Shown: piece by piece, positions 13,519-30,861 of the stretch
How the letters are laid out: each line of letters opens with the position of its first letter
Position numbering within the stretch: position 1 is the stretch's first letter
Source: Tsukamurella paurometabola DSM 20162
Lineage (GTDB): Bacteria; Actinomycetota; Actinomycetes; Mycobacteriales; Mycobacteriaceae
Assembly: GCF_000092225.1 (NCBI RefSeq)
Contig: NC_014158.1
Coordinates: 1,922,001-1,986,000 of the forward strand
Reading direction: 5' to 3'
Length of the DNA stretch: 64,000 nucleotides
Made by a program: the position numbers and the translations under genes
Notes under the pieces: generated by a model
The model's database searches: none
The model's input: only the letters and a program-made list of their open reading frames with translations
What the model was told of the DNA's origin: nothing

Positions 13519-14124
13519 TTACTGGGTTCGGGTGGCGCCCACGGTTCGGAGTGCCAGATCGGCGTAGTAGGCGCCGATTCGTTCGGGGGTGATGTCGCCG
13601 CCGTCGTGGTACCAGCGGGCCACGTCGATGCCACTGGACAGCACTGCGGTGGTGGCCAGTCGCGGTTCCGCGGTGTCGAACGAGCCGTCCTCGACGCCGG
13701 CGTCGACGATGGCACGCAGCCTGCGGGTGATCTCCCGACGCTGCTCACCGACCTCGACCCGGTGTTCCTCGGTGAGCGCCTCCAGCTCGTAGTTCACTAC
13801 CCGGGCGCTGGTGTGCTGCGCCGCGTGGTGGCTGGCGAACGCGTACATCACCGCGTGCAACCGGTCGGCGGGTGCCGCGGTGGGGTCGTCGACCGCATCG
13901 ATCAGATCGATGATCAGGCCGTGGCCGTGGTGCGAGAGCTGATACAGCAACTGTTCTTTCGACTTGTAGTGCACGTAGACGGCGGCGGGACTCATCCCCG
14001 CGGCGGCGGCGATGTCGCGGGTGGTGGTGCCGTGGAATCCGCGTTCGGCGAAGGCCTCGGCTGCCGCGGAGAGCAGCCGGGCTCGCGTCGTATCGGCGCG
14101 AGACGGTGCGTCGGCGTCGGTCAT
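13519..14124 (-). CDS. TetR-family transcriptional repressor
   Basis: 201 residues. The N-terminal DNA-binding domain shows RARLLSAAAEAFAERGFHGTTTRDIAAAAGMSPAAVYVHYKSKEQLL, the standard TetR helix-turn-helix; the rest is a ligand-binding helical domain. It starts at ATG 14124 (AAAGGA upstream). It is divergent from the thiolase operon and in tandem with the acyl-CoA dehydrogenase, so the 173-bp gap with the palindrome at 14250-14265 is the natural operator region. An acyl-CoA or the pathway substrate is the likely inducer, by analogy with FadR- and KstR-type regulators. Confidence 0.93.
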   Translation of the reverse strand: MTDADAPSRADTTRARLLSAAAEAFAERGFHGTTTRDIAAAAGMSPAAVYVHYKSKEQLLYQLSHHGHGLIIDLIDAVDDPTAAPADRLHAVMYAFASHHAAQHTSARVVNYELEALTEEHRVEVGEQRREITRRLRAIVDAGVEDGSFDTAEPRLATTAVLSSGIDVARWYHDGGDITPERIGAYYADLALRTVGATRTQ

Positions 14125-14203
14125 GATCGGCGTCCTTTTCGGCTTCGTCCACCGTACGTCCCGGTGGATGCATAGGGTGATCCAAGCCACATCACCCGGT
14201 CGA

Positions 14204-14265
14204 TTGACGATCGGCTCTCAGTGGTGCAAGGTAGAGACTACCTCGTTCGCTAAGCGAGCGCTTAG
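14204..14265 (+). promoter_or_regulatory. Promoter and TetR-type operator of the thiolase operon
   Basis: CTAAGCG-AG-CGCTTAG at 14250-14265 is a perfect 7-bp palindrome with a 2-base centre, typical of TetR-family operators. TTGACG at 14204-14209 is a possible -35 with a weak CAAGGT -10 seventeen bases later (14227-14232), which would put the palindrome just after the transcription start, where a bound repressor blocks elongation. A related 16-mer stands upstream of the MFS gene at 27084-27099. The thiolase start follows with AGGAGG at 14287-14292. Confidence 0.7.
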
Positions 14266-14297: not shown

Positions 14298-15507
14298 ATG
14301 CCCGAAGCCGTCATCGTCGCCACCGCGCGATCTCCGATCGGCCGCGCCGGGAAGGGATCACTCAAGGACATCCGCCCGGACGACCTGTCGGTGCAGATGG
14401 TGCGCGCGGCCCTGGCCAAGGTGCCCGAGCTCGACCCGCGGGAGATCGAGGACGTGCTCTTCGGCTGCGGCCAGCCCGCCGGCGAGTCCGGCTTCAACAT
14501 CGCCCGCGCCATCGCGGTCGAGGCGGGCCTCGACCACGCACCCGGCGTGACCGTGAACCGCTACTGCAGCTCCAGCCTGCAGACCACGCGGATGGCCTTC
14601 CATGCCATCAAGGCCGGTGAGGGCGAGGTCTTCCTCTCCGGCGGCGTCGAAACCGTCAGTCGATACGTCAAGGGCAACGCGGATGGGCTGCCCGACACCA
14701 AGAATCCGATCTTCGCCGATGCCGAGGCACGCACAGCGACCTTCGCCGCCGGCGGCCAGACGTGGGCCGATCCACGCGAGTCCGGCCTGGTGCCCGATCT
14801 GTACATCGCGATGGGCCAGACCGCCGAGAACGTGGCGCAGTTCAAGAACGTCAGCCGTCACGACCAGGACGAATGGGGTGTACGCAGTCAGAACCGTGCG
14901 GAGATCGCGCTCGCGGCCGGCTTCTGGGACAAGGACATCACCCCCGTCACGCTCGCCGACGGCACCGTCGTCAGTAAGGACGACGGCCCGCGCGCCGGCG
15001 TCACCTACGAGGCAGTGAGTCAACTCAAGCCCGTTTTCCGACCCGACGGCACCGTGAAATTGCTGTCCGCTCAACGACGGCGCGGCCGCGGTGGTGATCA
15101 TGTCCGACAGCAAGGCGAAGCAGCTCGGCCTCACCCCGCTCGCGCGGATCGTCTCCACCGGTGTCACCGGCCTCTCGCCCGAGATCATGGGCCTCGGCCC
15201 GGTCGAGGCCTCGAAGCAGGCGCTGGCGCGCGCCGGCATGTCGATCGGCGACATCGACCTCATGGAGGTCAACGAGGCCTTCGCCGCGCAGGTGATCCCC
15301 TCGGTGCGCGACCTCGGCATCGACGCCGACAAGGTGAACGTCAACGGTGGCGCGATCGCCGTCGGCCACCCCTTCGGTATGACCGGTGCGCGCATCACCA
15401 GCACCCTGATCAACTCGCTCCAGTGGCATGACAAGCAGTTCGGGCTGGAGACGATGTGCGTGGGCGGCGGCCAGGGCATGGCCATGATCATCGAGCGGCT
15501 GCGCTGA
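14298..15507 (+). pseudogene. Acetyl-CoA acyltransferase (thiolase), frameshifted
   Basis: First gene of the catabolic operon, a beta-ketothiolase of FadA type that would cleave 3-ketoacyl-CoA. The catalytic Cys motif NRYCSSSLQ is near residue 92, and the distal catalytic motifs GGAIAVGHPFGMTGAR and CVGGGQG are present but in a different frame. The frame changes at about 15057-15061: homologues read DGTV-TAG-NCCPLNDG, whereas here DGTV is followed at once by NCCPLNDG one frame over. Nine bases for TAG are expected and one is found, so an 8-base deletion explains the break. Translation in the first frame continues into nonsense to 15431. Restored length would be about 405 residues. The lesion separates the two halves of the active site. 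Confidence 0.85.
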
Positions 15508-16262
15508 TGGCGGGGCGATTCGACGGCCGGACCGCCATCGTCACCGGCGCTAGCCGGGGCATCGGTCTCGCGATTGCGCAGCGCCTCGTCGCCGATGGCG
15601 CGAAGGTCGTGATCACGGCACGCAAACAGGAGGCCCTCGATACCGCGGTCGCCGAGCTCGGCGGCCCCGGTGCGGCCGTCGCCGTCGCCGGCTCGGGGGA
15701 CGATCTCGCGCACCAGGACGAGGTGATCGCCACCGCTATCGACACTTTCGGCAGCGCCGACTATTTCGTCAACAACACCGGAATCAACCCCGTGTACGGA
15801 CCGCTCATGGATCTCGATGTGGGCGCGGCCCGCAAGATCATGGAGGTCAACGTGATGTCGACCCTGTCCTGGGTGCAGAAGGTCAACGCGGCCTGGCAGC
15901 GCGAGCACGGCGGCGCCATCGTCAACGTCGCGTCGGTGGCCGGACTGCGCCCCGCCCCGGGTATCGCCTTCTACGGCGTCTCCAAGGCGGCCGTCATCCA
16001 CCTCACCGAGGAGCTGGCAGTCGAACTGGGACCGGATATCCGGGTCAACGCGGTGGCGCCCGCCGTGGTCAAGACGCGATTCGCCACCGCTCTGTACGAG
16101 GGGCGCGAAGACGAGGTCTCCTCGGCGTATCCGCTCAAACGCCTCGGCGTCCCGGACGACATCGGTTCGGTGGTCGCGTTCCTGCTCTCCGACGATGCCG
16201 GGTGGATGACGGGGCAGACCCTCACCATCGACGGCGGCGTCCTGCTCACCGGAGGAGTCTGA
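15507..16262 (+). CDS. Short-chain dehydrogenase/reductase
   Basis: 251 residues. Classical SDR: nucleotide-binding TGASRGIG near residue 13, NNTG near 87 (the usual NNAG changed at one position), and catalytic Ser with YGVSK (Tyr-Lys pair) near 153. In this operon it probably oxidises a 3-hydroxyacyl-CoA, or another hydroxyl of the substrate, with NAD(P). ATG 15507 shares one base with the thiolase stop (TGATG), so translation is coupled. The C-terminal GWMTGQTLTIDGG is typical. Confidence 0.92.
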   Translation: MAGRFDGRTAIVTGASRGIGLAIAQRLVADGAKVVITARKQEALDTAVAELGGPGAAVAVAGSGDDLAHQDEVIATAIDTFGSADYFVNNTGINPVYGPLMDLDVGAARKIMEVNVMSTLSWVQKVNAAWQREHGGAIVNVASVAGLRPAPGIAFYGVSKAAVIHLTEELAVELGPDIRVNAVAPAVVKTRFATALYEGREDEVSSAYPLKRLGVPDDIGSVVAFLLSDDAGWMTGQTLTIDGGVLLTGGV

Positions 16263-16266
16263 TCCG

Positions 16267-17070
16267 ATGAGCGGATTCGATCCTCGGGGTGCGGGCGTCG
16301 TCGTGACCGGCGCCGGCGCGGGCATCGGCGCAGCCCTCGCTCGCACGCTCGCCGCCGCGGGTGCCCGCGTGGTGGTCGCCGATCTCGACGCCGACGGCGT
16401 GACGCGCACCGTCGAGGCGATCACCGCGGCCGGGAGCACGGCCTACCCGGCGCCCGGCGATGCCGCTTCCGAGGCGGGCGTCGCGGCGCTGGTCGCGACG
16501 GCGCGCGAGCGGCTCGGCGCGATCGACGCCTGGTTCGCCAACGCCGGCGTCGATCGCGGCCGGGGAATCGAAGCGTCCGAAGCGGATTGGGATCTGTCCT
16601 GGCAGGTGAACGTGATGGCGCACGTGCGCGCCGCGCGCCTGCTGGTACCTGACTGAGCGGCGGCCGGACGGGGCCGATTCGTGGTCACCGCATCGGCCGC
16701 CGGACTGCTCACGATGCTCGACGCTCCCGCCTACTCCGTCACCAAGCACGGGGCCGTGGCCTTCGCCGAATGGCTCTCCGCCACTTACCGGCACCGGGGC
16801 GTGGTGGTCCAGGCCATCTGCCCCCAGGGTGTGCAGACCCGCATGCTCGACGATTCCGGCCCGCTCAAGGACCTGCTCTCCCGGGACACCGCGCTCACCG
16901 CGGAGCAGGTCGCCGAGCAGACGGTGGCGGCGCTCGCGGGCGACGAACTGCTGATCCTGCCGCACCCCGAGGTGCGCGACTACTACCGGGCCCGCGCGGC
17001 CGCCCCCGACCGGTGGCTCGCCGGAATGAACAAGATCCAGCAGCGGCTGGAGCAGAAGAAGGGGCAGTGA
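16267..17070 (+). pseudogene. Short-chain dehydrogenase/reductase with a premature stop
   Basis: A second SDR, 268 codons, frame intact throughout except for TGA at 16654-16656. The segment reads ARLLVPD-stop-AAAGRGRFVVTASAAG; tryptophan is expected after the Asp, so one TGG-to-TGA change explains it. TGAGAGIG-type nucleotide binding (VTGAGAGIGAAL), the NAG motif and the YSVTK catalytic pair are all present, but the stop lies before the catalytic Ser and Tyr, so the product would be a 129-residue stub. It is four bases after the previous SDR, and its end overlaps the start of the next gene by one base. Stop-codon readthrough is possible in principle but nothing supports it. Confidence 0.85.
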
Positions 17071-18059
17071 TGAGGGCCTGGCAGGTACCGGAACTGGGCG
17101 AGCCGGCATCCGTGCTGCGCGCGGTGGATCTCGACATCCCGACCCCGGGACCGGGGCAGGTCACCGTGCGCACACTGGCCACGGCGGCGAACTTCCCCGA
17201 CGTCCTCATGTGTCGCGGGCTGTACCAGATCAAGCCCGATCTGCCGTTCACCCCGGGCGTGGAACTGTGCGGCGAGATCGTCACCGTCGGTGAGGGAGTC
17301 GACGGATTCGCCGTGGGCGAAAGGGTTTTGGGCGGAGTCGCGCTCCCGCACGGCGGTTTCGCCGAGTACGCCGTGATGAACGCGGCCGAGACCTTCCCGG
17401 CACCGTCCTCGCTCGACGACGCCCAGGCCTCCTCGCTGTTCATCGGCTACCAGACCGGATGGTTCGGCCTGCACCGCCGGGCCCAGCTGAAGGCGGGGGA
17501 GACCCTGCTCGTGCACGCCGCCGCGGGCGGGGTGGGCAGCGCTGCGATCCAACTCGGCAAGGCCGCCGGCGCCACGGTGATCGGCGTGGTCGGCGGGCCC
17601 GCCAAGGCCGAGGTGGCCCGCGCGCTCGGCGCCGACGTGGTGATCGACCGGCACACCGAGGATTTCGTCGAGGTGGTCAAGGCGCAGACCGGCGGTCGCG
17701 GCGCCGACGTGGTGTACGACCCGGTGGGCGGCGAGACCTACAAGCGGTCCACCAAGTGCATCGCCTTCGAGGGGCGCATCCTGATCGTCGGCTTCGCCGG
17801 CGGCAGCATCCAGGAGGCGGCGCTCAACCACGCGCTGATCAAGAACTACTCCATCGTGGGCCTGCACTGGGGTCTGTACAACCGATTCGATCCGGCAGCG
17901 GTGCGGGCCTGCCACGCCGATCTGACGGTCCTCGCGGACGCCGGGCAGGTCGCCCCGCTGGTCAGTGAGCGACTGTCCTTCGACGAGGTCCCGGACGGTC
18001 TGCAGCGCCTGGCCGACGGCAGCACCGTGGGCCGCGTCGTCTACCAGGCCGACCGGTGA
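17070..18059 (+). CDS. Zinc-free quinone oxidoreductase-like MDR protein
   Basis: 329 residues of the medium-chain dehydrogenase/reductase superfamily, quinone oxidoreductase branch. An N-terminal GroES-like domain (TPGVELCGEIVTVGEGVDGF) is followed by a Rossmann fold with LLVHAAAGGVGSAAIQLGKA near 150 and GADVVYDPVGG. No structural or catalytic zinc ligands are seen. NADPH-dependent reduction of a quinone or an enoyl group is expected; the exact substrate is unknown. ATG 17070 is the last base of the preceding gene's stop, and its own end overlaps the HAD gene by four bases. Confidence 0.9.
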   Translation: MRAWQVPELGEPASVLRAVDLDIPTPGPGQVTVRTLATAANFPDVLMCRGLYQIKPDLPFTPGVELCGEIVTVGEGVDGFAVGERVLGGVALPHGGFAEYAVMNAAETFPAPSSLDDAQASSLFIGYQTGWFGLHRRAQLKAGETLLVHAAAGGVGSAAIQLGKAAGATVIGVVGGPAKAEVARALGADVVIDRHTEDFVEVVKAQTGGRGADVVYDPVGGETYKRSTKCIAFEGRILIVGFAGGSIQEAALNHALIKNYSIVGLHWGLYNRFDPAAVRACHADLTVLADAGQVAPLVSERLSFDEVPDGLQRLADGSTVGRVVYQADR

Positions 18060-18730
18060 GCCGTGCGGTGGACGTGGTGCTCTTCGACTACGGCGGGGTG
18101 CTCACCACGCCGATGGGCGACAGCATCCGCGCCTGGATCGCCGACGAGGACATCGATCCCGCGGTGTTCACCGCCACCCTCAAGGCCTGGCTCGGCCGCG
18201 ACGCCGCCGAGGGGAGCCCGATCCACCGGCTGGAGACAGGCGACCTGCCCGAGGAGGACTTCGATCCGCTCTTCGCCGCGGCGCTGCGCACCCGCGACGG
18301 AGGAGCCGTGAATCCCGACGGCGTGCTCCGTCGGATGTTCGCCCGGGTCGCGGCCGATCCCGCGATGTGGTGTCTCGCCGAGGATCTCCGCGCGGCGGGA
18401 GTCGCGGTGGGCGTCGTGTCGAACAGCTGGGGCAGCGGCAACCTGTACGACCGTGACCGGCTCGCGGGGTTGTTCGGCGCGGTGATCATCTCGGAGGAGG
18501 TGGGCCTGCGGAAGCCGGACCCCGCCATCTTCGAGTTGGCGCTCGACCGGCTCGGCGTCCCGCCCGGCCGCGCGGCCTTCCTCGACGACGCCGTCCCCAA
18601 CGTCGAGGGCGCGGCCGCCCTCGGACTGCACGCCGTGCACCACACCGACGCCCGCACCACCCGCGAGGCCCTGGCCACCCTGATCCCCGGCCTCGCAACC
18701 GAACCCACATCCGAAAAGGAGAACGTATGA
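18056..18730 (+). CDS. HAD-superfamily hydrolase, ACAD10-type
   Basis: 224 residues. Motif I is VVLFDYGGVLTTP: the nucleophile Asp is present, but the usual acid/base Asp two residues on is Gly, as in the HAD domain of ACAD10-type proteins and in haloacid-type members. Motif II is VVSNSWGSG, motif III GLRKPDPAIF, motif IV FLDDAVPNVEGA. In vertebrate ACAD10 this domain is fused to an APH-type kinase and an acyl-CoA dehydrogenase; here those partners are separate genes of the same operon (19946 and 20964). A phosphatase or regulatory role in a phosphorylated acyl-CoA route is inferred. GTG 18056 overlaps the upstream stop as GTGA. Confidence 0.85.
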   Translation: MSRAVDVVLFDYGGVLTTPMGDSIRAWIADEDIDPAVFTATLKAWLGRDAAEGSPIHRLETGDLPEEDFDPLFAAALRTRDGGAVNPDGVLRRMFARVAADPAMWCLAEDLRAAGVAVGVVSNSWGSGNLYDRDRLAGLFGAVIISEEVGLRKPDPAIFELALDRLGVPPGRAAFLDDAVPNVEGAAALGLHAVHHTDARTTREALATLIPGLATEPTSEKENV

Positions 18731-19482
18731 CCACCCAACGTGTTGCCATCGTGACCGGTGCCGCCCGCGGCATCGGCGCCGAAGTCGCCCGCCGGCTCGC
18801 CTCCGACGGCCACAAGGTGGCCGTCCTCGATCTCGACGAAACCGCCTGCGCAGCCGTCGCGCAAGAGATCGTCGCCGCGGGTGGCCAGGCTATCGGCGTC
18901 GGCGTCGACGTCGCCGACGAAGAGAAGGTGGCGACCGCAGTCGGCCGTGTCGCCGAAGAACTGGGCGCTCCCACGATCCTGGTCAACAACGCCGGCATCC
19001 TTCGCGACAACCTGCTGTTCAAAATGTCGCTCTCCGACTGGGACCAGGTGATGGCCGTGCATCTGCGCGGCGCATTCCTGATGTCGCGCGAGGTGCAGAA
19101 GTACCAGACCAAGGAGGGGTGGGGCCGGATCATCAACCTCTCCTCCACGTCTGCCCTCGGCAACCGCGGGCAGGCGAACTACTCGGCAGCGAAGGCCGGT
19201 ATGCAGGGCTTCACCAAGACCCTCGCGTTCGAGCTCGGCAAGTTCGGCGTGACCGCGAACGCGATCGCACCGGGCTTCATCGCCACCGATATGACCGCCG
19301 CGACGGCTGAGCGGATCGGTGTCCCTTTCGAGGACTTCAAAGCCGCAGCCGCCAAGGAGATCCCGGTACAGCGAGTGGGAGCACCGTCCGATATCGCGCA
19401 CACCGCCAGCTTCTTCGCCAGTGAGGGAGCGGGTTTCGTCTCCGGGCAGGTCATCTACGTGGCCGGTGGGCCCAAGGACTGA
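18727..19482 (+). CDS. FabG-like short-chain dehydrogenase (3-oxoacyl reductase type)
   Basis: 251 residues. TGAARGIG near residue 10, NNAG near 88, Ser of INLSSTSALGNRGQ near 141, YSAAK near 155. Stretches such as GWGRIINLSSTSALGNRGQA and NAIAPGFIATDMT are typical of FabG and 3-hydroxyacyl-CoA dehydrogenase SDRs. It probably interconverts 3-hydroxyacyl- and 3-ketoacyl-CoA, and could cover for the broken SDR upstream. ATG 18727 overlaps the HAD stop by four bases. Confidence 0.92.
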   Translation: MTTQRVAIVTGAARGIGAEVARRLASDGHKVAVLDLDETACAAVAQEIVAAGGQAIGVGVDVADEEKVATAVGRVAEELGAPTILVNNAGILRDNLLFKMSLSDWDQVMAVHLRGAFLMSREVQKYQTKEGWGRIINLSSTSALGNRGQANYSAAKAGMQGFTKTLAFELGKFGVTANAIAPGFIATDMTAATAERIGVPFEDFKAAAAKEIPVQRVGAPSDIAHTASFFASEGAGFVSGQVIYVAGGPKD

Positions 19483-19493
19483 GGGAGCACACC

Positions 19494-19946
19494 ATGGAGA
19501 TCGTGAACGGCCCGGAGGAACTGCAGGCCGCCGTCGGGCGTCACTTCGGCTACTCGGACTGGGTCACCGTCGATCAGAAGCGAATCGACCTGTTCGCAGA
19601 GGCGACGGGGGATCACCAGTGGATCCACGTCGACCCCGAGCGAGCCGCGGCCGGCCCCTTCGGATCGACCATCGCCCACGGGTACCTCACTCTCTCGCTC
19701 ATCCCGATGCTGGTGTGGCAGGTCTACGAGGTACGGGGCGCGAAAATGGGGGTCAACTACGGCAGCAACAAGGTCCGATTCCCGCAACCGGTGCCCGTCG
19801 GGTCCCGGCTGCGAGCGGGCGTCGAGCTGCTCTCGGTCGCCGAGGGCGGCGGCGGGTATCAGGTGGTCACCCGGGTCACCGTGGAACGGGAGGGCGCCGA
19901 TAAGCCCGCATGTGTCGCCGAAACGGTCTCGGTGGTGGTCTTCTGA
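19494..19946 (+). CDS. MaoC-family enoyl-CoA hydratase
   Basis: 150 residues with a hot-dog fold. The catalytic Asp and His lie in FAEATGDHQWIHVD near residues 36-49, and IAHGYLTLSLIP is the second conserved stretch. It hydrates trans-2-enoyl-CoA, the product of the acyl-CoA dehydrogenases in this operon, to 3-hydroxyacyl-CoA. Its stop codon shares a base with the start of the kinase gene. It resembles the NodN/MaoC group by length. Confidence 0.92.
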   Translation: MEIVNGPEELQAAVGRHFGYSDWVTVDQKRIDLFAEATGDHQWIHVDPERAAAGPFGSTIAHGYLTLSLIPMLVWQVYEVRGAKMGVNYGSNKVRFPQPVPVGSRLRAGVELLSVAEGGGGYQVVTRVTVEREGADKPACVAETVSVVVF

Positions 19947-20962
19947 TGACCGACCAGCACCCCGGGCTCGATCTCGAGGTTCTCGGAACATGGCTACCGC
20001 AGCACGTGGACGGCGCCGGTTCGGACCTCGAAGCGACGCTGATCGCAGGCGGCAAATCCAATCTCACCTATCGCATCTCAGACGGTGACCGGGCGTGGAT
20101 CCTGCGCCGCCCGCCGGTCGGCAAGCTGCTTCCGTCCGCGCACGATATGGGCCGCGAGTACCGAATGATGTCCGCGCTCGCCGGTACCGGTGTTCCGCTC
20201 CCCGTGATGCACGCCTTCTGCGACGACCCCGGCGTGCTCGGCGCGCCCTTCTACGTGATGAGCGAGATCGACGGCGTGCCCTACCGTCGGTCGGCCGAGC
20301 TCGAGGAACTCGGACCCGAACGCACGCGGACCATCTCGGAGCGACTGGTCGACACCCTTGTCGCGCTCCACGGTGTTGATCCGGCCGCGGTCGGGCTCTC
20401 GGATTACGGCCGTCCCGAAGGCTTCCTCGGGCGGCAGGTGGAGCGGTGGAACAAGCAGTTCGCCGCCGCGCATACCCGCGATCTGCCGAAGGTGGACCAG
20501 TTGTATCGCGCACTGAGTTCCCGGGTTCCCGCTGATGCGAAACCCGGTATCGTGCACGGGGACTATCGCCTGGATAACGTCCTCGTCGACCCGCAGGACC
20601 GGCCCGCCGCCGTGGTCGACTGGGAACTCGCCACGATCGGCGACTCGCTGACCGACCTCGCGTTGATGGTGGTCTACGGCAGACTCGCGAAGGTCTCGCG
20701 CGAGACGGTCGCCGATGTCACCGAGGCTCCGGGTTTTCTCTCCGAACAGGAGATCATCGACCGGTACGCCGCTCAGAGCGACCGCGATCTGGGCGATTTC
20801 GGCTTCTACCTCGCGCTCGCGGCGTTCAAGTTGGCGGGGATCGTCGAGGGCATCCACTACCGCTACGTCAACGGCCAGACCGTCGGCGCGGGCTTCGCCG
20901 AGGCAGGCGACGCCGTGAACCCGCTGCTCGACGCCGGGCTGCAATCACTCGAGGAGAACTGA
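19946..20962 (+). CDS. APH-family kinase, ACAD10/11-type
   Basis: 338 residues of the aminoglycoside-phosphotransferase fold. [12 protein letters not shown] (glycine-rich loop near 32), WILRRPP, the catalytic loop HGDYRLDN near 206-213 and the magnesium site [11 protein letters not shown] near 225 are all present, so it should be an active ATP-dependent kinase. This subgroup matches the APH domain of ACAD10/ACAD11 and the LvaA kinase of Pseudomonas levulinate catabolism, which phosphorylate the 4-hydroxyl of acyl-CoAs. It is not an antibiotic-resistance gene by context. ATG 19946 overlaps the MaoC stop; the next gene, the matching dehydrogenase, begins one base after its stop. Confidence 0.88.
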
Positions 20963-20963
20963 C

Positions 20964-22187
20964 ATGGAATTCGGATACGACGCCACGACCACGGAGCTGA
21001 TCGCCGAGGTCAACGAGTTCATGGAGAGCCACGTGTACCCGGCGGAAGAGACGTTCCACCGGCAGCTGGGGGAACTCGACAACCGCTGGGCCTGGGACAG
21101 CGTTCCCGTGCTGCAGGAACTGCGCGCCGAGGCCCGTCGGCGTGGATTCTGGAACTTCTTCCTACCCGGTGAGGGCGGCGCCGGACTGACCAACCTCCAG
21201 TACGCTCCGCTGGCCGAGATCTCGGGCCGCGCATTGCATCTGGCCCCCGCGGTATTCAACTGCGCCGCGCCCGACACCGGCAACATGGAGGTGCTCAACG
21301 AGTTCGGTACCCCGGAGCAGAAGGAGCGCTGGCTCACGCCTCTGCTCGACGGGTCGATCCGGTCTGCGTTCGCGATGACCGAGCCCGACGTCGCCAGCTC
21401 CGATGCCACCAACATCGGGCTGTCCATCGTCCGCGACGGCGACGACTACGTGATCAACGGCCGCAAATGGTGGATCACCGGTGCCATGAATCCCAACTGC
21501 AAGATCTTCATCGTCATGGGCAAGACAGCGCCCGATGCCGAACGACACCGCCAGCAGTCCCAGATCCTGGTGCCGCGTGAGACTCCCGGGGTCGAGGTAC
21601 TGCGCGGTATGGAGGTGTTCGGCTACGACGATCACAACCACGGTGGCCACGCCGAGATGCGGTTCACCGATGTTCGCGTGCCGGCCAGCAACCTGATCGG
21701 TGAGGAGGGCGGCGGTTTCGCCGTCGCCCAGGCCCGTCTCGGGCCCGGACGAATCCATCACTGCATGCGGTCGATCGGTGTCGCCGAGCGCGCTGTCGAG
21801 TTGATGTGCGACCGGGTATCCGGCCGCACGGCCTTCGGGAAGCCGCTCTCCGAACAAGGGGTGATCCGCGACTGGATCGCCGAGTCGCGCGTGAAGATCG
21901 AGCAATTGCGCCTGTTGGTGCTCAAGACCGCCTGGTTGATGGACACAGTAGGTAATCGCGGCGCGCACACCGAAATCCAGGCGATCAAGATTGCGACTCC
22001 GCAGACGGTGCAGTGGATCTTGGACAAGGCCATTCAGGCCCACGGCGCCGGTGGGCTCTCGCAGGACTTCACCCTGGCCGAGTACTACGCGGGCATTCGT
22101 ACTCTCCGGTTCGCCGACGGTCCCGACGAGGTACACAAGAATTCCCTCGCGCGCGCCGAGCTGAAGAAGCGGGCGGCGGCGAAGTGA
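20964..22187 (+). CDS. Acyl-CoA dehydrogenase, ACAD10/11-like
   Basis: 407 residues. The stretch [18 protein letters not shown] and [17 protein letters not shown] are the hallmark of the ACAD10/ACAD11 branch, as are the [13 protein letters not shown] segment and the ending FADGPDEVH. In that branch the enzyme acts with a kinase on 4-hydroxyacyl-CoAs, removing the 4-phosphate and leaving an enoyl-CoA. The kinase gene immediately precedes it. A tight start (ATG 20964, GAGGAG upstream) and a four-base overlap with the next dehydrogenase indicate coupled expression. Confidence 0.9.
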
Positions 22188-23371
22188 CGGGGCCGGGCGC
22201 GCAGGACCTGGCACAGCGGATCGAGGACTTCCTCGCCGCGCATCCGCCGGCCACGACGGACCCGCTGGACTTCCTCCGCGCCCGGTACGACGCAGGCCTG
22301 GCGTGGGTCGCCTATCCCGAGGGGCGCGGGGGATCGGGCCTGTCCCGGTCCCTGCAACGGGCCGTGGATGCGCAGTTCGCCGCGGCCGGGGCACCCGACA
22401 ACCGCAGCCACGTGAACGGGATCGGGCTCGGAATGGCGGCGCCCACGATCCTGTCCTTCGGCACCCCCCAGCAGATCGACCGCTTCCTGCGCCCGCTGTG
22501 GACCGGCGAGGAGATCTGGTGCCAGCTGTTCAGCGAGCCCGGCGCCGGCTCCGACCTCGCGGGCCTCGCCACCCGCGCGGTGCGCGATGGTGACGATTGG
22601 ATCGTCACCGGCCAGAAGGTGTGGACGTCGGGCGCGCACAACGCGCAGTGGGCGATCCTCGTTGCCCGCACCGACCCCGATCAACCGAAACACAAGGGGC
22701 TGACCTACTTCCTGTGCGACATGTCGGATCCCGGGATCGACGTGCGCCCACTGCGCCAGATCACCGGCGAGGCCGAGTTCAACGAAGTCTTCCTCACCGG
22801 CGTGCGGATCCCCGATGCGCACCGCCTCGGCGAGGTCGGGCAGGGCTGGCAGGTCGCGAACGCCACGCTCAACAACGAACGGGTGGCGATCGGCGGCCGC
22901 GCGGCACAGCGCGAGGACGGCATGATCGGCGTCGTCACGCGGACCTGGCGGCAGCGACCCGAACTACGTACGCCCGGGCTGCATGACGATCTGCTCCGCC
23001 TGTGGGTCGACAGCGAGGTCGCGCGGGTCACGGCGCTGCGTCTGTCCCAGAAGCTCGCATCCGGCCATCCAGGACCCGAGGGTGCCGCGATGAAGCTCTC
23101 CTTCGCGCGGCTCAACCAGAAGCTTTCCGGTCTCGAGCTGGAGTTGCTCGGCGAGGACGGACTGCGCTACGGCGACTGGACGATGGTGCGCCCCGACCGG
23201 GTCGACTTCTACGGTCGTGACGCCGGCTACCGATACCTGCGTGCCAAGGGAAATTCGATCGAGGGCGGTACCTCCGAGATCCTCAAGAACATCGTGGCGG
23301 AGCGGGTCCTGGGTCTGCCGCCGGAGCATCGCGTCGATAAAGACCTGCCGTGGAAGGACGTGCCCAAATGA
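22184..23371 (+). CDS. Acyl-CoA dehydrogenase (probable alpha partner)
   Basis: 395 residues from GTG 22184. [18 protein letters not shown] near 120, [14 protein letters not shown] near 142, and the C-terminal [24 protein letters not shown], the usual end of a full acyl-CoA dehydrogenase. It is followed with a four-base overlap by a smaller relative, the arrangement of the mycobacterial heteromeric FadE pairs (alpha2beta2). It probably forms such a complex with the next gene product; steroid side-chain and branched substrates are typical for these pairs. Confidence 0.9.
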
Positions 23372-24453
23372 GCTTGACCCCCGATCTGCTGCTGACCGAC
23401 GTCGAGGAGGATCTGCGCTCGGCGGTCCGCGATCTGCTCGAACGGCGCAGCGTACCGTCGGATCTCATCGCCGCGTACGACGGTGCCCCCGTGCCCGGGA
23501 TCGACGCCGAGCTCGCCGCGATGGGCGTGGCCGGGCTGCTCGTTCCGGAGCGGCTCGGCGGGGCCGAGGCCGGAGTCGCCGTCGCGGGCGTGGTGGCCGA
23601 CGAGCTGGGGGCCGCGGCAGCATCGTCGTCGTTCCTCACCTCCGCGGGGATCGCGACCGCGGTGGCGCTCGCGGCGGGCGCGGACGACCTGGTTGAGCGG
23701 CTCGCTTCCGGTGCGGCCACGGCGGCTCTGGTCGTTCCCTTTTCCGTCGACCCGCACGGACCGCTCACGGGCGGTCCGGTGGCCGACGGGGCGATCACGG
23801 GCACCGTCCGCTCCGTGGCGGGCGCGATCGGGGCCGACGTCCTGTTGGTCTTGGGCGACGACGGTGCGCTGTACGCCCTCGATGCCGCGCGGACTCGTGT
23901 GAATCCGGTGTCCTCACTGGACATGACCCGTCAGGTCGCGGACGTGACCTTCGACGGGGCGCCGGGCACCCCTCTCACCGCCGACGGTGCCGCGGCCGTG
24001 CGTGCGGGCCTGCTGACCGGGGCGGCGTTGCTCGCCGCGGAACAGGCCGGAGTCGCGCGCTGGTGCGTGCGGACGACAGTCGGCTACCTCAAGGAACGCA
24101 GGCAATTCGGCCGGGTCGTCGGTGGGTTCCAGGCGCTCAAGCACCGGCTCGCCGAGCTCTACGCCGACACTGAATCCGCTGCGGCGATCTCCCGGTCCGC
24201 CACCGTTACCCTGGGCGATCTCGGGGCGGAGGATCCCGAGAGCGTCCTCGCGGTGGCCGTGGCCGCGGCGTATTGCTCCGACCTGGCCGTGCGCGCCGCC
24301 GAGGAGGCGGTGCAACTGCACGGCGGTATCGGTATGACCTGGGAGGCGCCGGTGCACCTGTATCTCAAGCGCGCCAAGGCAGATCAGATCGGTCTCGGGA
24401 CCCCCGGTAAGCACCGTGCGGCCCTCGCCGGGCTCGCCGATGTGCCCGCCTGA
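23368..24453 (+). CDS. Acyl-CoA dehydrogenase (probable beta partner)
   Basis: 361 residues, shorter and more alanine-rich than its neighbour. It keeps the C-terminal half (VGYLKERRQFGRVVGGFQAL near 230, AVQLHGGIGMTWEAPVHLYLK near 315) but has a divergent middle domain and ends without the GGTSE flavin loop. That is the pattern of the second subunit in heteromeric acyl-CoA dehydrogenases. ATG 23368 overlaps the previous stop (ATGA). Alone it is probably inactive. Confidence 0.88.
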   Translation: MSLTPDLLLTDVEEDLRSAVRDLLERRSVPSDLIAAYDGAPVPGIDAELAAMGVAGLLVPERLGGAEAGVAVAGVVADELGAAAASSSFLTSAGIATAVALAAGADDLVERLASGAATAALVVPFSVDPHGPLTGGPVADGAITGTVRSVAGAIGADVLLVLGDDGALYALDAARTRVNPVSSLDMTRQVADVTFDGAPGTPLTADGAAAVRAGLLTGAALLAAEQAGVARWCVRTTVGYLKERRQFGRVVGGFQALKHRLAELYADTESAAAISRSATVTLGDLGAEDPESVLAVAVAAAYCSDLAVRAAEEAVQLHGGIGMTWEAPVHLYLKRAKADQIGLGTPGKHRAALAGLADVPA

Positions 24454-24481
24454 GCGCGAACCACCCCAGGAGGGAGGAATC

Positions 24482-25462
24482 ATGGGAGCCGTCCACACCG
24501 TCACGGGAGACGTCGATGCCGCCGAACTCGGCGTCACGCTGATGCACGAGCACCTCTTCGTGCTCACCCCCGATATCCAGCAGAACTATCCGGAAGATTT
24601 CGGCGACGAGGACGCCCGCATCGAGGACGCGATCGGCCAGTTGCGCAAGGCTTACGACGCGGGTGTGCGCACCATCGTCGATCCGACGGTGGTGGGCCTG
24701 GGGCGATACATTCCCCGCATCCAACGGATCGCTGATCGCACTCCGGTACGGATCGTCGCCGCCACCGGCGTGTACACCTACCGAGATCTACCGCGTTACT
24801 TCATGTACCGCGGACCGGCGCTCACCGCGATGACGGGCATCGACTTCCCGGATCCCATGGTGGACATGTTCGTCCGGGACATCACCGAGGGGATCGCGGA
24901 CACCGGAGTGCGCGCCGGCATGCTCAAATGTGCCATCGACCGACATGGCCTCACCGAGGGTGTGGAACGCGTGATGCGGGCGGTGGCCAAGGCGCACCAT
25001 GCCACCGGTGTGCCGATCACGGTGCACACGCATCCCGGGTCCGAGAGCGGTCTCATCGTCAAGCGCGTGATGTGCGATGAGGAGGGCGTCGACCCTGCTC
25101 GGATCGTGTTGGGGCACAGTGGTGATACCACCGATGTCGAGCACCTGTCCGCACTCGCCGACGCCGGGTTCACGCTGGGCTTCGACCGATTCGGGATCAA
25201 CCTGGAGACCACCTTCGAGGCCCGCAACGACACCCTGATCGAGATGGTGCGCCGCGGCCATGCCGACCGGATCGTGATCTCGCAGGATGCCGCCTGCTAC
25301 ATCGATTGGATCGATCCGAACGTCAAATCCGGTATGACGCAGTGGCACTACACGCACGTCTTCGACGACGTCTTCCCCTATGTGCTCGAGCGCGGCGTGA
25401 CGCAGGCTCAGATCGAGACCATGCTGGTGGATGTGCCGCGGCGTGTACTGGTGGGGCAGTAG
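24482..25462 (+). CDS. Phosphotriesterase-like lactonase (amidohydrolase)
   Basis: 326 residues of the phosphotriesterase family. Metal ligands are visible: HEHLF near 22-26, the Lys of AGMLKCAID near 145 that is carboxylated in the family, His in TVHTHPGSE near 180, His in IVLGHSGDT near 208 and Asp in VISQDAACYID near 263. Most bacterial homologues (PLL group, including mycobacterial ones) hydrolyse gamma- and delta-lactones, only weakly organophosphates. In this operon, opening a gamma-lactone would give a 4-hydroxy acid for the ligase, kinase and ACAD11-like enzyme. It starts at ATG 24482 behind GGAGGGAGG. Confidence 0.88.
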   Translation: MGAVHTVTGDVDAAELGVTLMHEHLFVLTPDIQQNYPEDFGDEDARIEDAIGQLRKAYDAGVRTIVDPTVVGLGRYIPRIQRIADRTPVRIVAATGVYTYRDLPRYFMYRGPALTAMTGIDFPDPMVDMFVRDITEGIADTGVRAGMLKCAIDRHGLTEGVERVMRAVAKAHHATGVPITVHTHPGSESGLIVKRVMCDEEGVDPARIVLGHSGDTTDVEHLSALADAGFTLGFDRFGINLETTFEARNDTLIEMVRRGHADRIVISQDAACYIDWIDPNVKSGMTQWHYTHVFDDVFPYVLERGVTQAQIETMLVDVPRRVLVGQ

Positions 25463-25464
25463 CA

Positions 25465-26985
25465 GTGTCGTTCAACCTGGCGATCATGCTCCGCGAGTCT
25501 GCCGCTGCGACGCCCGAAGCGCCGCTGCTGTTCGCGGGCGACCGCGTGCTCAGCTACCGCGAGGTCGACGACTGCTCCGGCCGGGTCGCGTCGGCGTTGC
25601 TCGCTCGCGGTCTCGTGCCCGGCGACAAGGTCGCGGTGCAACTGCCCAACCTGCCCGAATTCGTGATGGCCTACTTCGGTGTGCTCAAAGCGGGCCTGAC
25701 CATGGTTCCGCTGAATCCGTTGTTCACTGCGCGGGAAGTGGAGTACCACCTCGGCGACAGCGATTCGCGAGCGCTCATCACCTCCGATTCCTCGGCCGAG
25801 GCCGCGGGCGCCGGCGCCGCCGCCGCAGGCGTCGATGACGTCCTGGTCGTGTCCGAAAACGCCTCGATCCCACGGGGCGCCACTGCCTTCTCCGACCTGC
25901 TCGCTACCGCGGGCAGCGGCGAGATCCATCCCACTGCGTCGGACGATACCGCCGTCCTGTTGTATACCTCCGGAACCACTGGGCGGCCGAAGGGCGCCGA
26001 GCTCACCCACTTCGAGCTGTACATGAACTGCACCGTCGCGCCGCAACTGTTCGGGATGACGGCGGCGGACGTCGCGCTCGGCGTACTGCCGCTGTTCCAC
26101 GTGTTCGGGTTGTCCAGTGTGCTCAACGCTGCTGTCCGGTACGGCGGGTCGGTCGCGTTGGTCCCGCGTTTCGAGGCCGCAGCGGTACTCGACGTGATGG
26201 AGCGACGCCGGGTGACCGTGCTGTCGGGAGTGCCCACCATGTACGTCGCGCTGCTCGGTGCCGGCCCCGGTGGTCGCGACCTGTCCGCGTTGCGCGCTGC
26301 GGTCTCGGGTGGGGCCTCGATTCCCGGCGGTGTGCTGCGAGGTTTCGAGGAGGCGTTCGGCGGGATCGCCGTGCTCGAGGGCTACGGTCTATCCGAGACG
26401 GCCAGCACCGCCACGTTCAACATCAGTGCCGACCAGCGCAAGGTGCTATCGATCGGCAAGCCGATCTGGGGTGTCCAGATGCGGATCGTCGACCCCGACG
26501 GTGTGGAACTGCCGCCGGGGGACGCTCACGTCGGCGAGGTGCTGGTCCGTGGCCACAACGTGATGAAGGGGTACTACAAGCGGCCCGAGGCGACCGCGGA
26601 GGCACTGCGCGACGGATGGCTGCATACCGGCGATCTCGGGTACCGCGACGAGGACGGATACTTCTTCATCGTCGATCGGCTCAAGGACTTGGTGATCCGC
26701 GGCGGCTACAACGTCTATCCGCGCGAGATCGAGGAGGTGCTCTACACCCACCCCGATGTCGTTGAGGCCGCGGTGGTCGGGCGGCCCGACGAGCGCCTCG
26801 GCGAGGAGGTCGAGGCCTTCGTGGTGCTCCGTCCCGGCTCGGCGACCGATACCGAGGCGCTGACCGCTTTCGCACGCGAGCGCCTGGCCGCGTACAAGTA
26901 CCCGCGGTCATTCGTCATCCTTCCCGAACTGCCCAAGGGGGCCACCGGCAAGATCCTCAAGCGGGAGCTGCGCGCACCGCGGTGA
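25465..26985 (+). CDS. Acyl-CoA synthetase (AMP-forming)
   Basis: 506 residues from GTG 25465, two bases after the lactonase stop. Adenylation motifs are complete: YTSGTTGRPKGAE near 167, GYGLSET near 306, YKRPEATAEALRDGWLHTGDLGY near 375, the hinge DRLKDLVIRGG and the catalytic Lys of KGATGKILKRELR at the end. It activates a carboxylic acid to its CoA ester and is the natural entry step of this operon. It is the only intact ligase of the locus, since the second (29280) is broken. Confidence 0.93.
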   Translation: MSFNLAIMLRESAAATPEAPLLFAGDRVLSYREVDDCSGRVASALLARGLVPGDKVAVQLPNLPEFVMAYFGVLKAGLTMVPLNPLFTAREVEYHLGDSDSRALITSDSSAEAAGAGAAAAGVDDVLVVSENASIPRGATAFSDLLATAGSGEIHPTASDDTAVLLYTSGTTGRPKGAELTHFELYMNCTVAPQLFGMTAADVALGVLPLFHVFGLSSVLNAAVRYGGSVALVPRFEAAAVLDVMERRRVTVLSGVPTMYVALLGAGPGGRDLSALRAAVSGGASIPGGVLRGFEEAFGGIAVLEGYGLSETASTATFNISADQRKVLSIGKPIWGVQMRIVDPDGVELPPGDAHVGEVLVRGHNVMKGYYKRPEATAEALRDGWLHTGDLGYRDEDGYFFIVDRLKDLVIRGGYNVYPREIEEVLYTHPDVVEAAVVGRPDERLGEEVEAFVVLRPGSATDTEALTAFARERLAAYKYPRSFVILPELPKGATGKILKRELRAPR

Positions 26986-27083
26986 GCTTCGGGGGCGCCC
27001 GCGAACCCGAGCCGAACGATGATCGTCGTCGCGAAGAACGGCGCCAATGGGCGAAATGGTCGTTTGCGAACCTTTTGACCTGC

Positions 27084-27145
27084 GTAAGCAGGCGCTTAGA
27101 AGTTTCGCGGAACTGGTTGACATGAACGTCAACGTCAATCATTCT
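27084..27145 (+). promoter_or_regulatory. Operator and promoter of the MFS transporter gene
   Basis: The 16-mer GTAAGCAGGCGCTTAG at 27084-27099 matches the palindrome upstream of the thiolase operon at 13 of 16 positions. Downstream, TTGACA at 27117-27122 is a perfect -35, with CATTCT (27140-27145) as -10 after 17 bases. TTGAC-N6-GTCAA (27117-27132) forms a second inverted repeat over the -35. The 199-bp gap contains nothing else recognised. Confidence 0.6.
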
Positions 27146-27184: not shown

Positions 27185-28576
27185 ATGTCAGTCACGCCGT
27201 CCGCCGCGCTCGACGAGGGCGATCGCCGCAAATCCCACCGCAAGCTCCTCACCGCCGGGCTCGTCGGCAGCTCTATCGAGTGGTACGACTTTTTCGTCTA
27301 CGGCACCGCTGCCGCTCTGGTCTTTCCGAAGGTCTTTTTCCCGAACGCGTCGCCGCTCGTGGCGACGCTGGCGGCGTTCAGCACCTTCTCGATCGGGTTC
27401 ATCGCGCGGCCACTCGGCGGCATCCTCGCCGGCCATTACGGCGACAAGCTCGGTCGCAAGCCCATGGTGTTGCTGTGCCTGATCGCGATGGGAGCGGCCA
27501 CGTTCCTCATCGGCTGCCTGCCATCCGCGAACGTCGCGGGCATGGCCACCGTGGCGCCCGTGCTGCTGATCACCCTCAGGTTCGTGCAGGGCCTCGCATG
27601 CGGCGGCCAGTGGGGCGGAATCGTGCTTCTGCTCACCGAATCCGCCGGCCCCAAGCGGCGCGGCTTCGCCGGTACGTTCGGGCAGATGGGCGTGCCTCTC
27701 GGTCTCGTGCTCGGCAACCTGATGATGATCGTGGTCAGCTACGCGATGCCGAACGACGCCTTCCTGAGCTGGGGATGGCGAATCCCCTTCTGGGCCAGTG
27801 CAGCCCTGATCCCGGTGGTGCTCTACATCCATCTCAAGGTCGAGGATTCGCCCGAGTTCCGACAGCTCAAGGCCGAGGTCGAGGCCAAGCGCGGTGAGCA
27901 GGCGCAGGTCGCCGCGGCACCGCTGTCCGAGGCTATCGGCAAACACTGGCGCAAGATCCTGCTCGGCGCGGGCCTCCTCGCCGGCACCAACTCCGCGTTC
28001 TACGTGTCCATCGCCGGATTCCTCAGCTACGGCACCCAGAAGACCGCAGACGGTGGACTCGGTATGGACCGCAACACCGTGCTCACCTCCATCCTGGTGA
28101 CCTCGATCCTGATGCCTCTCGTGATCATGTGGGCCGGGTCCGCCTCCGACCGGCTGGGCCGCCGTCCACTGATCCTGCTCGGCGGCGGCGTGCTCATCCT
28201 CTGGGCGTTCCCGTTCTTCCTGCTCGCCAACACCGCCTCCGGAACCTTGCTGGTCATCGCCATGCTCGTCTCCAGCGCCGGTCAGGCACTGACGTACGGC
28301 CCGCTGGCCGCCTTCATGGCCGAGTTGTTCGAGCCGCGAGTGCGATACTCCGGTGCGTCTCTGGCCTATCAACTGGCCGCCGTCGCCGTCTCCGGCGTGG
28401 CGCCCCTCCTGATGACATGGGTGATCGCGGAGACCGGCTCCACCTGGGGAGTGTCCCTCTATCTCGCCGCAATGGGTCTCATCACGCTGCTCAGCGCCTG
28501 GTTCCTGCCGGAATCGAATCCCGCTGCCGTCCGTGAGGATCCCGCGGCGGTGCCCGGCGTCCCGGCCACGGCGTAG
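27185..28576 (+). CDS. MFS transporter, metabolite:proton symporter (MHS) type
   Basis: 463 residues with about 12 helices. SSIEWYDFFVYGTAAALVFP at the start, GHYGDKLGRKPMV (MFS signature between helices 2 and 3), RFVQGLACGGQWGG, and SASDRLGRRPLILLGGG in the second half are typical of the ProP/ShiA-like MHS group, which imports small organic acids and related solutes. Its position between the catabolic operon and a second ligase/carboxylase unit, and the matching operator, suggest it brings in the growth substrate. It starts at ATG 27185 behind GGGAG. Confidence 0.9.
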   Translation: MSVTPSAALDEGDRRKSHRKLLTAGLVGSSIEWYDFFVYGTAAALVFPKVFFPNASPLVATLAAFSTFSIGFIARPLGGILAGHYGDKLGRKPMVLLCLIAMGAATFLIGCLPSANVAGMATVAPVLLITLRFVQGLACGGQWGGIVLLLTESAGPKRRGFAGTFGQMGVPLGLVLGNLMMIVVSYAMPNDAFLSWGWRIPFWASAALIPVVLYIHLKVEDSPEFRQLKAEVEAKRGEQAQVAAAPLSEAIGKHWRKILLGAGLLAGTNSAFYVSIAGFLSYGTQKTADGGLGMDRNTVLTSILVTSILMPLVIMWAGSASDRLGRRPLILLGGGVLILWAFPFFLLANTASGTLLVIAMLVSSAGQALTYGPLAAFMAELFEPRVRYSGASLAYQLAAVAVSGVAPLLMTWVIAETGSTWGVSLYLAAMGLITLLSAWFLPESNPAAVREDPAAVPGVPATA

Positions 28577-30753: not shown

Positions 30754-30779
30754 TGGCTATGTCAACTGGGAGTGGCCCC
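30754..30779 (+). repeat. Left outer inverted repeat of the IS21 element
   Basis: 26 bases from TGGCTATG to GGCCCC, matching the reverse complement of 35281-35306 at 18 positions. Confidence 0.8.
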
Positions 30780-30785
30780 ACTGGG

Positions 30786-30803
30786 ACGGTTTGATTTGGC
30801 CCC
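30786..30803 (+). repeat. Left internal transposase-type repeat of the IS21 element
   Basis: ACGGTTTGATTTGGCCCC, related to inverted copies at 35213-35230 and 35257-35274. Multiple terminal repeats of this kind are a feature of IS21 elements. Confidence 0.7.
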
Positions 30804-30861
30804 GGGCGTAGTCTGGTTCGCGGTGGGGCGGGTTGTGTCGAGTCCTGGTTGACTGGGGGGC

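Follow-up and report, generated by a model that had tools for sequence, protein, structure and literature searches.

The window analysed here is a 64,000 nt stretch of Tsukamurella paurometabola DSM 20162 (NC_014158.1, positions 1,922,001-1,986,000), and its positions 14298-26985 hold thirteen genes on the + strand, as located by Pfam, NCBIfam and open reading frame (ORF) reading. In order, they encode a 3-ketoacyl-CoA thiolase, two short-chain dehydrogenases (SDR1 and SDR2), an MDR protein, a HAD protein, a third short-chain dehydrogenase (SDR3), a MaoC-type enoyl-CoA hydratase, an APH-fold kinase, an ACAD11-type acyl-CoA dehydrogenase (ACAD), two further ACADs (ACADa and ACADb), a phosphotriesterase-like (PLL) lactonase and an acyl-CoA ligase. 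With the start codons assigned in this analysis, the 12 intergenic gaps from the thiolase to the ligase are -1, +4, -1, -4, -4, +11, -1, +1, -4, -4, +28 and +2 bp, including four overlaps of 4 bp and three of 1 bp. Since the gaps are only -4 to +28 bp, these genes are likely one transcription unit. The kinase, the ACAD11-type dehydrogenase and the lactonase were each found as one copy in the genome at the cut-offs used (E ≤ 1e-30, E ≤ 1e-70 and E ≤ 0.001, respectively), all inside the operon. By analogy with characterised systems, we consider it probable that this operon encodes nearly all of a pathway for breaking down lactones and 4-hydroxy acids.

The dehydrogenase at 20964-22187 (+) is of the ACAD10/11 type as judged from scores and residues. 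Its best PDB matches by phmmer were 8v3u (461.8 bits), 8v3v (459.5 bits), 2wbi (454.3 bits) and 4hr3 (439.7 bits), followed by 4iv6 at 142.5 bits. The three best sequences are all ACAD11; we take 8v3u to be the mouse protein, and the source species of the other ACAD11 entries are likewise assumed. All four residues specific to ACAD10/11 are present in the window protein, where R258, H266, R269 and D385 correspond to ACAD11 R626, H634, R637 and D753, with residue numbers mapped from the PDB alignment and the register fixed by 8v3v, which has Asn at D753. D385 sits in the motif ADGPDEVH, and all 12 aligned sequences, among them the window protein, have the four residues. In the published passages on ACAD11, the catalytic Asp (D753) is described as common only to ACAD10/11 homologues. 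A misidentified ACAD was ruled out by the score gap (439.7 versus 142.5 bits) and the four diagnostic residues. The enzyme, which is LvaC-like, is a candidate for eliminating phosphate from 4-phosphoacyl-CoA.

The kinase at 19946-20962 (+; PF01636, 1.8e-49) is nearest, by its sequence matches, to ACAD10/11-like kinases and is a candidate 4-hydroxyacyl-CoA kinase resembling LvaA and the ACAD10/11 kinases. Its best PDB matches were 9o56 (228 bits), 3dxp (222 bits) and ACAD11 (193 and 189 bits), with 9fsg next at 59.5 bits, and all 14 aligned sequences share its HGD and DWE motifs. A preliminary description of this DNA had named placement of the kinase or the dehydrogenase outside the ACAD10/11 group as a result that would speak against its pathway; neither was placed outside it, as judged from PDB scores and residues rather than from a tree. 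Six related loci (L008, L018, L022, L025, L031 and L032) carry a kinase of another type, with 33-35% identity to the window kinase. In these and in the Rhodococcus locus L145, the motif reads HGDFHLRN or HGDFHIRN, compared with HGDYRLDN in the window. For the L145 kinase, the best PDB entries are again 9o56 (175 bits), 3dxp (164 bits) and ACAD11 (148 and 145 bits), with the next at 31 bits.

The HAD protein is encoded at 18056-18730 (+; PF00702, 3.6e-14; TIGR02247, 89 bits, under the cut-off of 125.4). Its motif I (FDYGGVL) has the form D-x-G-G, as in 26 of 26 matches above 70 bits, which represent 19 distinct genes because some loci entered the set twice, and it is without the second Asp of the DxD motif. 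An incomplete DxD is also found in other, active HADs, so the missing Asp is weak evidence for an ACAD10-like HAD. The one-strand order HAD, APH, ACAD11 was observed in 16 of 20 loci in which all three genes were recognised. With repeats removed, it was observed in 13 of 16, namely ten Tsukamurella loci, two of survey group g2 and one of Nocardioides phosphati, the other three being ordered differently. As described in the relevant parts of PMC11342911, the HAD domain of ACAD10 also has no full DxD motif, its phosphatase activity is negligible and it restrains the kinase. On the strength of this published work, the window HAD protein is probably a regulator of the kinase rather than an enzyme, and the alternative that it is an ordinary 4-phosphoacyl-CoA phosphatase was disfavoured.

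The lactonase lies at 24482-25462 (+; PF02126, 1.3e-82). It matched 4if2 with 366.8 bits and SsoPox (2vc5) with 236.7 bits, of which we take 4if2 to be the phosphotriesterase homology protein from M. tuberculosis. All 18 aligned sequences have H22, H24, K149, H182, H212, D269, Y98 and R236, which are presumably the binuclear-metal ligands and the lactonase Tyr and Arg, with roles as in SsoPox. The nearest named relatives of the protein are from Tsukamurella (79-91% identical). The ligase at 25465-26985 (+; PF00501, 1.3e-95) scored 486.4 bits with NF004837, over the cut-off of 476; its start was placed at a GTG at 25465, and the listed open frame opens earlier, at 25306. No NCBIfam family scored over its cut-off for the kinase, the ACAD11-type enzyme or the lactonase.

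Of the remaining operon genes, the thiolase gene (14298-15507, +; Thiolase_N, 1.5e-48) is broken in frame near 15060; its first part scored 447.5 bits with the PRK07851 model, under the cut-off of 580, and the remainder lies in a different frame at 15091-15507. SDR1 follows at 15507-16262 (+; adh_short_C2, 8.4e-55; ATG at 15507), and SDR2 at 16267-17070 (+; adh_short) has an in-frame TGA at 16654-16656. The MDR protein (17070-18059, +; ADH_zinc_N) is NAD(P)H:quinone oxidoreductase-like, of the PIG3 family, with 236.9 bits to TIGR02824, under the cut-off of 296.8. SDR3 (18727-19482, +) resembles FabG and 3-hydroxyacyl dehydrogenases (TIGR01830, 254.4 bits, under the cut-off of 297.75), and the MaoC-type hydratase is at 19494-19946 (+; PF01575, 5.6e-29). 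ACADa (22184-23371, +) and ACADb (23368-24453, +; PF00441, 8.6e-26) overlap by 4 bp and may form a heteromeric pair. The nearest PDB entries to ACADa are Tcur3483 (6wy9 and 6wy8) and 4x28, at best only 139 bits (6wy9; 124 bits for 4x28), and we take them to be heteromeric actinobacterial ACADs of steroid side chains, acting on bulky acyl-CoAs. No oxygenase was identified among the operon genes by Pfam annotation of the window proteins. All 10 Tsukamurella loci examined, from 9 genomes, have an unbroken SDR2, and the thiolase is unbroken in L007, L013, L057 and L060, the four loci with the whole gene, six others ending at the locus edge. The breaks in the window may be sequencing error or decay. 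The HAD protein, the kinase, an acyl-CoA dehydrogenase, the PLL lactonase, the CoA ligase, the MaoC protein and the SDRs had all been assigned to one operon in the preliminary description, and each was located where it had been placed. ACADa, ACADb, the MDR gene, the two breaks, and the downstream MFS gene and divergent TetR gene with its palindrome described next were not part of it.

A TetR-family regulator (13519-14190, -; Pfam TetR_N and TetR_C_24) is encoded divergently ahead of the thiolase and is the probable repressor of the operon. The palindrome CTAAGC-N4-GCTTAG, a putative operator, was found by aligning the TetR-thiolase intergenic region in five genomes; in the window it lies at 14250-14265 and ends 32 bp ahead of the thiolase start. 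It occurred in 0 of 100 shuffles of the window, and the 4.48 Mb genome has no perfect site other than that at 14250-14265. Because the reversed control pattern is likewise present once, rarity alone proves little. Sites were also found ahead of the thiolase in L007, L013, L057, L060 and L064, and ahead of SDR1 in L057 and L065-L068. A second putative copy with 1 mismatch (27084-27099) precedes an MFS transporter gene resembling qsdD (27185-28576, +; PF00083, 8.1e-37). The listed frame of this gene opens at 27047, and its likely start is the ATG at 27185, beyond the operator and 199 bp past the ligase; the gene is probably its own transcription unit. In five Tsukamurella genomes, a site lies no more than 100 bp from the MFS match (L006 and L069 of one genome, L013, L065, L067 and L068). 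Since the shared palindrome stands ahead of both, the MFS gene appears tied to the operon. Other genera have sites as well (L014, L040, L061 and L147), with an adjacent TetR gene in L014, L061 and L147, and homologues of the window TetR adjoin the operator in Tsukamurella L007, L013, L057 and L060 and also in L061 and L147. By analogy, the divergent TetR protein probably represses both the operon and the MFS importer through the shared palindrome.

Several neighbours of the cluster were also recorded. An acyl-CoA dehydrogenase of ordinary type (12328-13485, -) adjoins the divergent TetR gene and has the same place in L007, L013, L057 and L060. A second AMP-binding CoA ligase, divided between two frames, lies at 29280-30852, and a pRiA4b ORF-3-like protein (30862-32331) comes after the cluster.

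Conserved co-occurrence of these genes had been proposed as a check in the preliminary description, and it was found both within Tsukamurella (survey group g1) and outside it. All 15 other Tsukamurella genomes carry the ACAD11-type gene, and the lactonase is about 3-4 kb away in 13 of them; the operon contig of G007 stops at ACADa (L060). In G015 (L057), the operon finishes after the ACAD11-type gene, a natural lactonase-free variant. In a first sample of 46 lactonase loci outside Tsukamurella, 6 (L008, L018, L025, L031, L032 and L040) had, in the stretch covered, an ACAD11-type gene confirmed by its signature. The survey covered 351 genomes of the family, of which 148 had a lactonase at E ≤ 1e-85, 133 of them outside Tsukamurella. 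It counted at least 134 lactonase loci from 129 of these 133 genomes, with G070, G086, G335, G396 and further weak loci standing outside the count. All 133 genomes were searched for ACAD11-type genes, taken here as matches to the window protein at E ≤ 1e-120; signature checks were confined to the loci retrieved. Among the 134 loci listed, an ACAD11-type gene starts within 12 kb of the lactonase in 41, where copy number and a genome size of 5.5 Mb predict about 0.98. This excess is given without a p-value because related genomes are not independent, and its occurrence in nine genera carries more weight. The linked loci, again among those listed, are in g24, which includes Rhodococcus (17/25), g9 (15/30), g22 (2/2), g28 (2/11), g23, which includes Nocardia (1/15), and g4, g7, g13 and g27, the last including Skermania (1/1 each). 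The linkage is also present in Nocardioides, Streptomyces and Acidimicrobiia metagenome-assembled genomes, and in Nocardioides phosphati the HAD, APH, ACAD11 and PLL genes are consecutive on one strand. Three ACADs near lactonases or retrieved together with them were left uncounted because their signature is not that of ACAD11: those of L119 (37%) and L152 (57%), and the second match of L099 (36%). The L152 protein of Rhodococcus jostii, at 10.7 kb, is the one 57% identical to the window ACAD11-type enzyme; it has HYAM for HHCM and DGPNE for DGPDE and is perhaps, on these residues, of a subgroup with a different substrate.

One linked locus could be connected to a characterised system. In L145 (Rhodococcus sp. 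P-2), a lactonase 55% identical to that of the window is followed on the same strand by a CoA ligase, an MFS transporter and a HAD gene. The divergent TetR protein of L145 matches QsdR (PDB 4za6) over 186 residues with zero differences, and the matching part begins about 160 bp from the lactonase gene. In the relevant part of PMC4640858, 4ZA6 is given as QsdR, and qsdC and qsdD as the ligase and MFS genes. Beyond the qsd genes, the opposite strand of L145 carries another CoA ligase gene and a MaoC gene. These are followed, on the lactonase strand and at about 8-14 kb from that gene, by SDR2, an enoyl-CoA hydratase, the ACAD11-type gene (about 10 kb), SDR1, the kinase, SDR3 and ACADa. Rather than one operon, L145 thus comprises at least two neighbouring units. 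The R. globerulus locus (L153) is arranged like L145 and has no HAD match. Assimilation of gamma-caprolactone, the lactone of 4-hydroxyhexanoic acid, requires the qsd operon according to the available part of PMC6476934. R. erythropolis has been developed for quorum-quenching biocontrol because of its gamma-lactone pathway, and the part of PMC3689677 on the steps after QsdA and QsdC has the opened chain degraded 'by a beta- or omega-oxidation step', with other enzymes required. In the passages of the ACAD10 study that concern it (PMC11342911), 4-hydroxyhexanoyl-CoA was used as substrate and 4-hydroxy acids were made by opening lactones. Since 4-hydroxyhexanoyl-CoA is a substrate of the ACAD10 reaction and gamma-caprolactone needs qsd, the qsd neighbourhood holds candidates for the step after QsdA and QsdC. 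The words 'phosphotransferase' and 'acyl-CoA dehydrogenase' are absent from PMC6262395, as are 'phosphotransferase' and 'acyl-CoA' from PMC3689677.

Every reaction of the proposed route, and its repression, is modelled on characterised relatives. The lactonase would open a (gamma-)lactone to a 4-hydroxy acid, and the CoA ligase would convert this to the 4-hydroxyacyl-CoA. The APH kinase would phosphorylate the 4-hydroxyl, and the ACAD11-type flavoenzyme would remove the phosphate by oxidation, elimination and re-reduction to give a 2-enoyl-CoA. This product would undergo hydration by the MaoC protein, oxidation by an SDR and cleavage by the thiolase, with ACADa/b serving later turns of beta-oxidation. 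The HAD protein would restrain the kinase, as in ACAD10, and an SDR may bring in 4-keto acids, as in the lva operon. The preliminary description had traced the same path from lactonase to ligase, kinase and dehydrogenase, and beta-oxidation, and our results support it as a sequence-based hypothesis.

Several observations weigh against this proposal. The thiolase and SDR2 are broken in the genome of the window. ACADa, ACADb, the lactonase and the ligase are absent from Tsukamurella G015 (L057) with the other operon genes kept, and group g2 (L058 and L059) has the HAD, APH and ACAD11 genes with no lactonase match in the genome; the lactonase is separable, since both keep these three genes without it. 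Among the loci listed, g30 has 0 of 33 linked within 12 kb though all 33 genomes carry both genes, and g6, g11, g12, g14, g16, g18, g20, g26 and g31 have 0 of 14 together; in the two loci of g14, which includes Tomitella, the ACAD11-type gene is 23-25 kb from the lactonase. Of 74 named lactonase loci outside Tsukamurella, from genomes partly shared with the first sample and several of them on contigs too short to decide linkage, only 9 (L075, L090, L099, L116, L125, L127, L128, L133 and L137) have an ACAD11-type gene, confirmed by its signature, in the stretch covered. The Rhodococcus qsd and ACAD11 genes are in separate units with oppositely oriented genes between them. Finally, the substrate may be other than a simple alkyl lactone, because the ligase is only 37% identical to the ligase at the qsdC position and ACADa is nearest to ACADs of bulky acyl-CoAs.

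Some of these points bear on a rival explanation, rather unlikely in our judgement, in which the real substrates are 4-hydroxy or 4-keto acids from elsewhere, such as lipid peroxidation or levulinate-like compounds, and the lactonase salvages lactones formed by self-cyclisation of 4-hydroxy acids or 4-hydroxyacyl-CoAs. The loci of G015 and g2 that keep HAD-APH-ACAD11 without a lactonase, and the unlinked genes of g30, would fit this explanation, and an SDR could serve like the lva reductase. However, the lactonase adjoins the ACAD11-type gene in 13 of the 15 other Tsukamurella, and in the available part of PMC6476934 the Rhodococcus qsd operon is required for gamma-caprolactone assimilation. 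A further explanation, which we regard as unlikely, is that a bulky natural lactone (terpenoid- or steroid-like) is degraded and ACADa/b is a heteromeric enzyme for ring-bearing acyl-CoAs. The matches of ACADa to the presumed steroid side-chain enzymes (6wy9, 6wy8 and 4x28) point in this direction, as do three SDRs and an MDR protein, more than plain beta-oxidation needs, but the similarity of ACADa is remote (139 bits) and an oxygenase is missing among the operon genes identified.

Opening the ring of an N-acyl-homoserine lactone (AHL) yields no 4-hydroxy fatty acid. Quorum quenching, with the lactonase and ligase chiefly destroying or recycling AHLs and the ACAD11 module unrelated, is improbable, although QsdA, a characterised relative of the lactonase, cleaves AHLs in the published passages on it, because AHL chemistry leaves the recurring link to a kinase and dehydrogenase of 4-hydroxy-specific type unexplained. 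Although these genomes hold many SDR, CoA ligase and ACAD genes, a chance cluster of common fatty-acid genes was rejected on the linkage survey, since 41 linkages among the loci listed against about one expected, nine genera and a shared palindrome would then have to be coincidence.

Degradation of lactones through 4-hydroxyacyl-CoA is the reading we retain. A wider proposal, which we offer tentatively as possible rather than probable, is that actinobacteria have a dedicated, regulated lactone-to-beta-oxidation route whose PLL lactonase supplies substrate to a split ACAD10, with the HAD protein as a trans-acting brake on the kinase. The route would be the downstream half of the rhodococcal gamma-lactone pathway, and many PLL 'quorum-quenching' lactonases would serve fatty-lactone salvage, including the re-opening of lactones that 4-hydroxyacyl-CoAs form by themselves. 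Such a role would give actinobacteria a metabolic reason to have PLL lactonases. The kinase and dehydrogenase of ACAD10/11 type that lie about 10 kb from qsdA would have a chemistry fit to strip the 4-hydroxyl and could fill the missing step of the qsd pathway, and the window module is a natural, separated counterpart of ACAD10, useful for learning the role of the HAD domain. The preliminary description knew of no account of a lactonase with a split ACAD10 as one pathway. Its claim holds in part: the action of a PLL lactonase and a CoA ligase on gamma-lactones is published for rhodococcal qsd, and their joining to ACAD10/11 may be new. Lactonase with ligase (qsd) and kinase with ACAD (lva, ACAD10/11) were already known separately, and only the union of the two may be novel. 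A literature search by title, abstract start and term counts, with subscription papers mostly outside its scope, found among the papers listed none uniting the lactonase and ligase with ACAD10/11 or Lva chemistry.

Compared with known systems, the window lactonase keeps the catalytic residues of the PLL family (4if2 and SsoPox 2vc5), and it is from the operon context alone that fatty gamma-lactones are suggested as its substrates. The qsd operon of R. erythropolis (qsdR, qsdA, qsdC and qsdD) likewise has a PLL lactonase, a CoA ligase and an MFS gene in the same order, with a TetR gene in the locus; QsdA accepts gamma-lactones in the published passages on it, and the window MFS protein is 61% identical to that at the qsdD place in L145. 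The two differ in that the window lactonase and ligase are 55% and 37% identical to their counterparts, the TetR gene is divergent ahead of the thiolase rather than beside the lactonase as QsdR is, and the kinase, ACAD11 and beta-oxidation genes are inside the lactonase operon. The lva operon of Pseudomonas putida (LvaA, LvaC and LvaE), likened here by its described chemistry, shares a kinase, an ACAD and a ligase for 4-hydroxyacyl-CoA. All three are present in the window, where the 4-keto reductase, if there is one, could be any of the three SDRs. The published passages on lva mention no lactonase and give the ACAD10 HAD no homologue in lva, whereas the window additionally has a HAD protein, a MaoC protein, a thiolase and an extra ACAD pair. 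In vertebrate ACAD10 and ACAD11, the domain order of ACAD10 is the HAD, APH, ACAD11-type gene order of the window, and the four diagnostic ACAD residues and the incomplete DxD of the HAD are shared. In the window, however, the domains are separate genes, SDR3 and MaoC stand between the HAD protein and the kinase, and the module shares its operon with a lactonase.

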